NCBI GenBank assembly: GCA_026196875.1
Contig: JAPHTP010000035.1
Span: 1 to 40,682, forward strand
Direction of reading: 5' to 3'
DNA: 40,682 nucleotides
Source: Kangiellaceae bacterium
Lineage (GTDB): Bacteria > Pseudomonadota > Gammaproteobacteria > Enterobacterales > Kangiellaceae
Made by a program: the position numbers and the translations under genes. The notes beneath the pieces were generated by a model, which searched no databases, was not told the origin of the DNA, and saw only the letters and a program-made list of their open reading frames with translations. Below, one piece after another: positions 18,075 through 20,897 of this stretch. How positions within the stretch are numbered: the stretch's first letter is position 1; every line of letters begins with the position of its first letter.

Positions 18075-18923
18075 TTAGCTCATCGTATTTTTAAGCTTAT
18101 TCATTGCGTTTTTTTCCAACTGGCGAATGCGCTCTGCCGAAACTTGGTACTTTTCAGCCAACTCTTGCAATGTAGTTTTTTCATCGCTCAACCAGCGCGC
18201 CGCTATAATTTCTTGGCTACGTTGATCGAGAGACTGCATCGCATTAAATAAACGCTTTTGGTGGAAGTCGTCCCAGTTTTGTTGTTCCAAAGCTTGTGCA
18301 GGATCTTCCTCCGGCGATTCCAAATACGCCGCAGGTGCAAAACTAGTCTCTTCATCGGCATCGTTAGGTAAATCGAAGGCCGTGTCACGAGAATTAAGTC
18401 GGCTTTCCATACGCCTCACTTCTACTTCTGAAACACCAAGATCTTCTGCAACAGCTTTGATTTCATCATTGTTTAGCCAATTAAGGCTTTTTTTAGCGCC
18501 GCGCAAATTAAAGAACAATTTACGCTGGGCCTTAGTGGTAGCGACTTTAACAATACGCCAGTTCTTCAATACAAACTCGTGAATTTCAGCTTTGATCCAA
18601 TGAACCGCAAATGAAATTAAGCGAACACCAACGCTAGGGTCAAAACGCTTAACCGCTTTCATCAGACCTACGTTACCTTCTTGAATTAGATCAGCTTGTG
18701 GGAGTCCATAACCAGAGTAGCTACGTGCGATATGCACTACAAATCGCAAGTGCGAAAGGATCAACTCACGAACAGCATTAAGATCTCCTTCTTCTTGATA
18801 GCGAGTCGCCAATGCTCTTTCATTTTCAGCGGATAAAACAGGCACAGAATGTATCGCAGTAATATAGGATTCTATATTCCCTTGAGGTACAGACATAGAA
18901 ACTGCTGTTAATGCTTTACTCAT
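18075..18923 (-). CDS. rpoH: RNA polymerase sigma-32 factor RpoH
   Basis: This is the heat-shock sigma factor. Regions 1.2 and 2 (about residues 17-125) include [19 protein letters not shown] and the -10-recognising helix. The RpoH box QRKLFFNLR, typical of sigma-32, lies near 132-140. Region 4 (about 225-280) contains the helix-turn-helix [20 protein letters not shown]. At 282 aa it is full length. The ATG follows AGAGGA. It lies downstream of ftsX as in E. coli, but two CIRCE operators stand about 95-150 bp upstream of the start, which predicts repression by HrcA in addition to the usual chaperone-based control of sigma-32 activity. Confidence 0.97.
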
Positions 18924-19015
18924 TTAAAAGTCCTCTTGCTTATATACAGCAAGCAATTAAATTCACTTAAAGCCCCTTTAAAACCTGTTAAAGGTGACTA
19001 TCATTGCTTGCTAGT

Positions 19016-19042
19016 CTAGCACTCTATTGTCCAGAGTGCTAA
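19016..19042. promoter_or_regulatory. CIRCE element 1 (HrcA operator) upstream of rpoH
   Basis: CTAGCACTC (19016-19024), nine bases, GAGTGCTAA (19034-19042). The CIRCE consensus is TTAGCACTC-N9-GAGTGCTAA, so 17 of 18 arm positions match and the spacer length is exact. HrcA is the heat-shock repressor that binds CIRCE, usually at groESL or dnaK. The element is about 95 bp upstream of the rpoH ATG. Confidence 0.92.
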
Positions 19043-19046
19043 TTTT

Positions 19047-19073
19047 TTAGCACTTACCTTATAAGAGTGCTAA
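19047..19073. promoter_or_regulatory. CIRCE element 2 (HrcA operator) upstream of rpoH
   Basis: TTAGCACTT (19047-19055), nine bases, GAGTGCTAA (19065-19073); again 17 of 18 arm positions of CIRCE match, with the exact spacer. Its start is 31 bp from that of element 1, close to three helical turns, so both would be on the same face of DNA and HrcA dimers could bind side by side. The spacer includes the candidate -10 hexamer TATAAG on the minus strand. Confidence 0.92.
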
Positions 19074-19234
19074 AAATGACAAAAGTTTCCTTAAGAAACA
19101 ATTTGTTACAGCATTTTTTTCAACTATATTCCAACCGCTTTGAGGTAAATATTTACAATTTTTTGATCATAAATTGATCAAAAACAGAAGAAAAAACGAT
19201 TAAAATATGAGCAGCTAGCCGTTTAAGCCACAAC

Positions 19235-20209
19235 TTATCTCGGTTCAATTTGGCGAATATGCCGACCGACGCTCAGCCATGAGCCTAGCAAGCCAAGGCC
19301 ACAGCTAACCAACAGTAACTGCAGGCTTTGCAGTAAGCTTAAACCGCTTAATTGAAACTGACTTTGATATAAACCAGCCAAATTGGCAACTGGATCCTTA
19401 AGCCAGGCTAAAGAGAAAGTAAGTATTAACCAACATGTAACCCCAGATAGCAAGCCATACCAGAAGCCCGTATAAAGAAACGGCCTACGAATAAATGCGT
19501 CTGTAGCGCCGACCAATTTAACGACTTCAATTTCCTCTCGTCGGTTTTGTACTGATAATCGAATGGTATTACCAACGATCAATAAGACCGCAAGTGCTAG
19601 CGCTAAACCTAGGGCAGATGCAGCCTTTTCGGCAAGTTGTAACATGGCATAAAGCTTACGAACCCAGTCAAGATCTAACTTCGCCAATTCTACTTCAGGT
19701 ATGGTCTGAAACTCTACCAACATTGTTTCGGAAGCTTCTGGTGAGTTGTGGGTGGAAGCTGGTTGCACTACCAAGACTGGAGGCAGAGGATTAGAATCCA
19801 GCTGAGCAATCGCATCCGCAAACCCAGAACTTTGTTTAAAGTCGTCCAGTGCTTGCTGTTGGTTGATAATATCAACCTTTGTTACACCGTCTTGGGTCCT
19901 GACCTGATTTGCAATCTGTTCAAGCTGGCTTTGCTCGAGATCAGTTTTTAAATACAGCGATATGCGACTAGCACCATCCCAACTCTGTGACAAAGACTTA
20001 CCATTATCTAGCAAGATCTGCAGTCCAGCGGGTAATGCCAGTGCTATCGCAATCACTAAGACCGTCATTAAATTGGATATAGGATTGGAAAAAATATCCC
20101 TTATCCCACGCTTGGCTTCAATCTTGTGCAAGCGCCCCAACATTCTAAGTCGAGCACCAATCGTCGCTCCTTGAGACAAAGAGGCACCTGTGAGCTGGTC
20201 GCTACTCAT
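19235..20209 (-). CDS. ftsX: Cell-division protein FtsX
   Basis: This is the membrane subunit of the FtsEX ABC-type complex at the division site, which activates periplasmic amidases through EnvC. It has a cytoplasmic N-terminus, TM1 (about residues 48-68), a periplasmic domain (about 70-180), and three further helices towards the C-terminus (about 195-215, 245-270, 300-318). I chose the ATG at 20209 (324 aa): it follows GAGGAGG and overlaps the ftsE stop (ATGAGTAG), the usual ftsEX coupling. The longer frame to 20239 lies inside ftsE. Confidence 0.95.
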   Translation of the reverse strand: MSSDQLTGASLSQGATIGARLRMLGRLHKIEAKRGIRDIFSNPISNLMTVLVIAIALALPAGLQILLDNGKSLSQSWDGASRISLYLKTDLEQSQLEQIANQVRTQDGVTKVDIINQQQALDDFKQSSGFADAIAQLDSNPLPPVLVVQPASTHNSPEASETMLVEFQTIPEVELAKLDLDWVRKLYAMLQLAEKAASALGLALALAVLLIVGNTIRLSVQNRREEIEVVKLVGATDAFIRRPFLYTGFWYGLLSGVTCWLILTFSLAWLKDPVANLAGLYQSQFQLSGLSLLQSLQLLLVSCGLGLLGSWLSVGRHIRQIEPR

Positions 20210-20897
20210 ATTCGACCTCCTCAACTTGCTCTTCGTCAATTTGATCTTGCACCAAACGACCTTCCTTCATCACTAGCGTCCGGTAGTGCATTTGCGCAAT
20301 CAGACTTAAATCATGCGAGGCAATAAGTAAACTAACCCCTACCTGATTGAATTGTTCAAATAAATGCATAATTTCTGAGGAAAGTTCCGGGTCAAGATTA
20401 CCGGTTGGCTCATCGGCGAGTAATAAAGGTGGTTTATTAACTACCGCGCGCGCAATGCCAACTCTCTGTTGTTCACCACCGGATAGCATAATAGGTGAAT
20501 GTTTTTCTTTTGATAGTAAACCAACTTTGTCTAGAGCCGCCCTAACTCGACGACCTATTTCGCGGTGTGGATAACCCGCGATCATCAAGGGAAGGGCAAC
20601 ATTGTCAAATACACTGCGGTCAAATAAGAGACGATGATCTTGAAAAATCATACCGATATCACGGCGAACCTGGGGGATCTTTCGGCGGCTGGTTTTGTTT
20701 AAATTTTTACCATTAACAATAACCTGACCGGAAGTCGCTCTTTCCATTAAGCAAATTAACTTTAATAATGTACTTTTACCCGCACCAGAGTGACCAGTCA
20801 AAAAAGCCATTTCTCCATCGCCTAAGATGAAGTTAACTTTTTTCAAAGCCTCCTGACCATTCGGGTAGCGTTTTGAGACTTCCGCGAATTCAATCAT
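20202..20897 (-). CDS. ftsE: Cell-division ATP-binding protein FtsE
   Basis: This ABC ATPase pairs with FtsX and links ATP hydrolysis to septal peptidoglycan splitting. Walker A is GHSGAGKST (about residues 36-44), the Q-loop is in [11 protein letters not shown], the signature is [14 protein letters not shown], Walker B is LLLADEPTG and the H-loop is in IASHD. At 231 aa it is slightly longer than E. coli FtsE because of an acidic C-terminal tail ([11 protein letters not shown]). It overlaps ftsX by 8 nt and lies 64 nt after ftsY. Confidence 0.97.

Follow-up and report, generated by a model that had tools for sequence, protein, structure and literature searches.

The window, by which we mean the whole stretch of DNA analysed here (40,682 bases), is one contig of a 6.28-Mb Kangiellaceae assembly in 188 contigs, and carries on its minus strand an rpoH gene for sigma-32 (positions 18075-18923, 282 aa; TIGR02392 rpoH_proteo, 409.1 bits, above the cut-off of 323.1). 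Upstream of it lie ftsX, also on the minus strand, as an open reading frame with a TTG start (19235-20239; TIGR00439, 359.6 bits), and ftsE (20202-20897; TIGR02673, 291.6 bits). Among the matches listed, the nearest named rpoH loci were those of an uncultured Kangiellaceae bacterium (79% identity) and then of Pleionea (70%). Within the 311 bp that separate ftsX from rpoH are two copies of the CIRCE element, both predicted HrcA operators with no strand assigned, the proximal one at 19016-19042 and the distal one at 19047-19073, which start 119 bp and 150 bp upstream of the rpoH start codon, respectively. In a motif scan of the window with the consensus TTAGCACTC-N9-GAGTGCTAA (18 arm bases, 9-bp spacer), each copy matched 17 of 18 arm bases with the exact spacer, and the two were 31 bp apart from start to start, or about three helical turns. 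Dinucleotide shuffles gave a mean chance expectation of 0.01 such matches in the window, and no other CIRCE-like match with up to three mismatches was found in it, confirming the tandem arrangement that had been described in the original prediction.

The rest of the genome holds further components of an HrcA system. A single hrcA gene was found (PF01628, 208.3 bits against a cut-off of 22.2), followed by what we take from the translations to be grpE, dnaK and dnaJ, and rpoE was likewise present (TIGR02939, 313.2 bits; cut-off 236.15). With up to two mismatches allowed, the genome contained three CIRCE sites, namely the two at rpoH and a perfect one before groES-groEL (G000:C138:73190-73216, L006), whereas the reversed-pattern control gave none; no site at this threshold preceded hrcA itself. 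A fourth candidate with three mismatches was rejected, as it lies inside an open reading frame and four sites against five in the reversed-pattern control is chance level. The original prediction had placed HrcA above rpoH in a feed-forward hierarchy, and the site before groES supplies the proposed hierarchy with both of its ends, which supports that arrangement as far as sequence can. Sigma-32-like promoters were also found at grpE (CTTGAAT-N13-CCCCAT) and dnaK (GTTGAAT-N13-CCCCAG). As a separate observation, an rpoD-like gene in this genome (G000:C52:16555-17238, L129) has one in-frame TAG between ...LRLVI and IAKKYTNRGL, which most probably reflects a mistake in the assembly or in the consensus.

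Conservation was followed in a family set of 40 genomes that included the window's own, of which 37 had hrcA, 37 had rpoH and 35 had both; the three genomes without a match of RpoH strength were G375, G376 and G378. A CIRCE with two or fewer mismatches preceded rpoH at all 35 rpoH loci of hrcA-positive family genomes. When the second site was allowed up to five mismatches, the pair was present at 31 of 37 family rpoH loci, spaced by 31 bp at 26 of them, by 30 bp at three, and by 32 bp and 33 bp at one each, so that both elements are indeed kept in close relatives. Two of the findings that the original prediction had named as refuting it, a genome lacking hrcA and poor conservation of the elements among close relatives, were thus looked for and not found. 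Four hrcA-positive loci had a single CIRCE only (G374, G382, G405, G406). In a profile built from the 26 loci whose two sites are 31 bp apart (three or fewer mismatches), the CIRCE arms carried 1.73-1.96 bits of information per column, compared with 0.34 in the upstream sequence and 0.51-0.86 in the spacers. One family genome, G379, has an intact rpoH and in addition a second, frameshifted copy (G379:C30:5496-6323, L128) that is preceded by a perfect CIRCE of its own (C30:6454-6480).

The association with hrcA extended well beyond the family. In the named set, which comprised the best 80 of at least 593 rpoH relatives and in which a CIRCE was accepted with up to four mismatches, hrcA and a CIRCE at rpoH coincided in 80 of 80 genomes, 18 having both and 62 neither. 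Among these best 80 of at least 593, the entries with both included Pseudoalteromonas, Rheinheimera, Alishewanella, Ketobacter, Haliea, Woeseiaceae and Thiohalobacter, and neither was found in the Pseudomonas, Halomonas, Aeromonas, Shewanella and enterobacterial entries. Four Pseudoalteromonas loci (L015, L019, L026, L039) combined a perfect CIRCE at rpoH with an HrcA match of 33-47 bits, compared with 129-224 bits in the other hrcA-positive genomes of the same best 80 of at least 593; a much diverged Pseudoalteromonas HrcA may thus still read the same operator.

An evenly drawn sample of the class contained hrcA in 268 of 369 genomes. For a further comparison, 64 of the 268 were taken, roughly one from each family, together with 16 of the 101 hrcA-negative genomes. 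An rpoH gene was found (E 1e-60) in 75 of these 80, with four hrcA-positive genomes and one hrcA-negative genome dropped. With a criterion of three or fewer mismatches within 500 bp upstream of rpoH, a CIRCE was present before 56 of 61 rpoH copies in the 60 hrcA-positive genomes, against one of 15 in the hrcA-negative genomes, and in none of 1520 shuffled upstream regions (shuffles that keep base composition only). As 56 of the 60 sampled hrcA-positive class genomes have such a site, a CIRCE before rpoH is no special trait of Kangiellaceae. The hrcA-positive exceptions were G113, G202, G072 and G037, although inspection by eye suggested a CIRCE-like sequence with a spacer of 8 bp in G113 and a remaining right arm in G037; the second rpoH copy of G032 also had no CIRCE, and the hrcA-negative genome G128 had one. 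With these exceptions, the element at rpoH is present where hrcA is present and lost or degenerate where hrcA is not.

Fisher tests of hrcA against CIRCE at rpoH gave 3e-18 and 2e-10, on rows that are related to one another, and this relatedness weakens the co-occurrence counts. On the RpoH tree, the labels of the named set (best 80 of at least 593) changed only four times. A larger tree of 167 rows, built from the single gene RpoH, combined 13 of the 37 family loci with 76 class and 78 named rows, leaving out L009 and L010, whose hrcA scores and sizes equal those of G380 and G405, as apparent duplicates of these. On this tree hrcA changed 17 times; the best tree gave 17 independent pairs, and only five when restricted to well-supported branches. 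When a CIRCE was counted with at most one mismatch, 4.8 of the five well-supported pairs went the same way and none the opposite way (sign test p 0.06); with two or three mismatches the tally fell to 2.9 of five, again with none opposite, since the looser limits score degenerate sites as present. The link between hrcA and the operator at rpoH is therefore wide in extent, but independent events do not yet prove it.

The promoter region of rpoH suggests what the paired sites would act upon. On the minus strand, a sigma-E-type -35 element (GAAACTT, 19083-19089) is followed after 16 nt by a sigma-E-type -10 element (TCTTA, 19062-19066), fitting the sigma-E pattern of GGAACTT, about 16 nt and TCTGA at six of seven and four of five positions. 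By position, the distal CIRCE overlaps this predicted -10 through its left arm in the direction of rpoH, whose last two bases are the TC of the -10. The original prediction had instead pointed to TATAAG as the -10, and this hexamer does lie within the distal CIRCE spacer (19058-19063, minus strand); as a promoter, it fared less well. Of the 19 family loci that share this layout (counting that of the window), TATAAG occurred in the window's locus alone and TATAAT in one other (two of 19 together), whereas a sigma-E -35 was found in 18 and a sigma-E-type -10 in 17 (TCTTA in 15, TCTGA in two). The rpoH promoter is thus probably the sigma-E-type GAAACTT-N16-TCTTA and not TATAAG. An inverted repeat, GTTTCTTAAGGAAAC, at 19085-19099 overlaps the -35, and just upstream of it the sequence TGTAACAA-TTGTTTC is one that also occurs in the closest relatives.

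HrcA could still act here through an ordinary sigma-70 promoter, with the sigma-E-like motif being incidental or secondary, a reading that we regard as unlikely. Besides TATAAG, a weak candidate for a second promoter element, known from sequence alone, is the extended -10-like TGCTAGACT (19013-19021, minus strand), which consists of the right arm of the proximal CIRCE and the next bases and reads TGCTAATAT (right arm plus TAT) in several relatives; several promoters are also a feature of rpoH in E. coli. Against this stand the poor conservation of TATAAG, a sigma-70 scan of 18900-19300 that found no promoter on the minus strand, and the position of the sigma-E -35 across the class. Scoring any 7-mer that matches GGAACTT at six or more positions, a -35 was found 15-17 bp before the start of the CIRCE at 29 of 57 class loci, 24 of 37 family loci and eight of the 18 CIRCE-bearing named loci (best 80 of at least 593). 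From the other offsets, none of which held more than three matches, 0.40 were expected in the class set at these three offsets together, and a peak of this kind at a fixed offset is hard to explain under a sigma-70 promoter. Autoregulation of rpoH by sigma-32 was considered as well and rejected, the best sigma-32 promoter match being 9 of 13.

The offset of 15-17 bp means that the left arm of the CIRCE ends in the TC of the sigma-E -10. At the 29 class loci with the offset -35, the -10 read TCTAA in ten, TCTCA in six, TCTTA in two and other forms in 11. At groES the right arm of the CIRCE overlaps the sigma-32-type -35 of GTTGAGT-N13-CCCCAT, so that each of the two predicted HrcA targets has an operator with bases in common with its promoter. 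At rpoH, promoter and operator are nonetheless separable, as a sigma-E-type promoter occurs without a CIRCE, for example before rpoH of Kosakonia (L082, GGAACTT-N16-TCTGA); the four Pseudoalteromonas loci have the perfect CIRCE without a sigma-E-type promoter.

A different layout was found in seven genomes of genus g276, which belong to the 26 with a 31-bp pair. Here, the sigma-E -10 comes before the pair, with the promoter reading GAAACTT-N16-TCTTA in six and having the -10 TCTAT in one, and five family -35 matches at offset -39 fit these seven genomes with their promoter upstream of the pair. Occlusion of the -10 fails in them because of this position. As the 31-bp spacing was kept with the promoter moved upstream, the distance between the two CIRCE sites may matter in itself. 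Both repeats would also be transcribed in these genomes and each repeat could form a stem, which would agree with a role mainly as RNA, either as hairpins of the rpoH leader affecting mRNA stability or thermosensing or as a terminator behind ftsX. We consider such a role highly improbable: the one terminator-like match is on the plus strand and points away from the ftsX-rpoH direction, no Rfam family reached its gathering score in 18700-19400, the left arm of a distal repeat that overlaps the promoter would stay outside the transcript from that promoter, and the presence of the repeats tracks hrcA.

Two family genomes with rpoH had no detected hrcA, G404 (100% complete) and G372 (98%, in 330 contigs), and their rpoH sites had two and six mismatches in G404 and two and eight in G372 (taking the best match no more than 2 bp from where it was expected), with the promoter kept in both (GAAACTT-N16-TCTTA in G372, GAAACTT-N16-TCTAT in G404). 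The rpoH site was the sole remaining CIRCE with up to two mismatches in either genome; the loss of the others was not counted, because the hrcA-positive genomes G373, G381 and G382 likewise have none outside rpoH. In G376, in which neither hrcA nor rpoH was found, one perfect CIRCE was present elsewhere with a spacer resembling those of groES sites, which would be accounted for by a gap in the assembly or by a recent loss.

The sites could be genuine HrcA operators and yet matter little for sigma-32 output, if rpoH were expressed by readthrough from ftsX and the control of sigma-32 were mainly post-transcriptional, as it is in E. coli. The position of rpoH downstream of ftsE-ftsX would permit such readthrough, and the stability and activity of E. 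coli sigma-32 depend on chaperones (PMC6032397). This is, in our judgement, quite improbable, as the sites in the promoter region are conserved in the family and have become degenerate in G404 and G372. E. coli is no guide here, moreover, because the enterobacterial genomes among the best 80 of at least 593 have no hrcA match.

The tandem form is more restricted than the single site. A search of the class with the exact tandem pattern returned two of 369 genomes, the window's and G159, which has its pair at rpoH, 42 bp apart (L213); a further pair at rpoH, 32 bp apart, in G010 (L192) was missed by this pattern. These two pairs rule out a tandem CIRCE unique to Kangiellaceae, of which it is mainly a feature. 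In the phylum, three of 398 genomes matched, consisting of the window's, G655 and G727. The match in G655, from another class, lies before what we take by eye from its translation to be groES (L215), and that in G727 has poor arms and no recognised heat-shock gene nearby.

Taken together, it is likely that the CIRCE pair constitutes HrcA operators in the rpoH promoter region, through which HrcA would block sigma-E-driven transcription of rpoH with GroEL as the sensor. The operators, promoter motifs, hrcA and rpoE genes, conservation and co-occurrence with hrcA are read from the DNA, and from them we infer HrcA binding, repression, GroEL titration, the use of sigma-E and cooperativity of the pair. 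In the proposed circuit, free GroEL would activate HrcA, whose dimers would occupy both rpoH operators, and HrcA on the distal CIRCE would cover the sigma-E-type -10 such that sigma-E polymerase would be unable to start rpoH. Unfolded protein would draw GroEL off, leading to release of HrcA and transcription of rpoH, which would be strongest with sigma-E active. The resulting sigma-32 would switch on groESL, grpE and dnaK, giving a second push to groESL, which would also be directly repressed by HrcA via its own CIRCE. Newly made GroEL would then reactivate HrcA and restore repression, closing a loop that would join the three stress regulators HrcA, sigma-E and sigma-32. The HrcA switch would thereby probably control the sigma-32 switch, and related HrcA-bearing bacteria mostly have such a site as well.

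HrcA and sigma-32 are usually described as separate modes of heat-shock gene control. If HrcA stands above rpoH in most hrcA-bearing gammaproteobacteria, the two would form one circuit with GroEL as its sensor, and E. coli, on which the standard picture is modelled, would be a reduced case. We propose only tentatively, with slightly more doubt than belief, that HrcA repression of sigma-E-driven rpoH, with the operator fused to the -10, is the ancestral gammaproteobacterial wiring and that the E. coli scheme is a remnant left after repeated loss of hrcA. Were this true, rpoH would act as a gate, which envelope stress could open only if the cytoplasmic chaperonin were overloaded too. The locus also illustrates compactly how a repressor site can share bases with a stress-sigma promoter, and the genomes without hrcA show the fate of such an operator.

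In the open-access literature searched, of which coverage was partial, no report of a CIRCE at rpoH was found beyond a prediction for Geobacter sulfurreducens, and the accessible parts of PMC10696704, PMC3989490, PMC6032397, PMC8103513, PMC11764788, PMC3135505 and PMC10490939 reported none; HrcA had no occurrences in the available text of PMC5343134. Within that literature, the composite operator, the tandem form and the class-wide linkage to hrcA look new. The closest precedent there (Rodionov et al. 2004, PMC545781) is the CIRCE predicted before rpoH of G. sulfurreducens, with further copies at groESL and hrcA-grpE-dnaK-dnaJ. That case involves one site, at -51, in a deltaproteobacterium, and no other species in Table 8 of that paper is listed with a site at rpoH, whereas the present locus, in another class, has a tandem pair that overlaps a sigma-E-type promoter and belongs to a class-wide link with hrcA.

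The promoter itself resembles the P3 promoter of E. coli rpoH, which is driven by RpoE (PMC8103513), in that a sigma-E-type promoter stands before the same gene. The enterobacterial loci differ, since that of Kosakonia and L043 (TGAACTT-N16-TCTTA) have no CIRCE and their genomes no hrcA match. Likewise, HrcA is activated by GroE and inactivated when unfolded protein titrates GroE in B. subtilis, and findings in H. pylori and Chlamydia are in line with this (PMC6032397). The repressor family and the operator are the same here and GroE dependence is assumed to be, whereas the target would be an activator sigma factor besides the chaperone operon. Finally, the groE operon of Agrobacterium tumefaciens is under both RpoH and HrcA according to PMC11764788, so that HrcA and sigma-32 meet at groESL there as they would here. 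The title of a work cited in that paper speaks of independent roles for the two regulators, whereas in the genome described here HrcA would also control rpoH itself.
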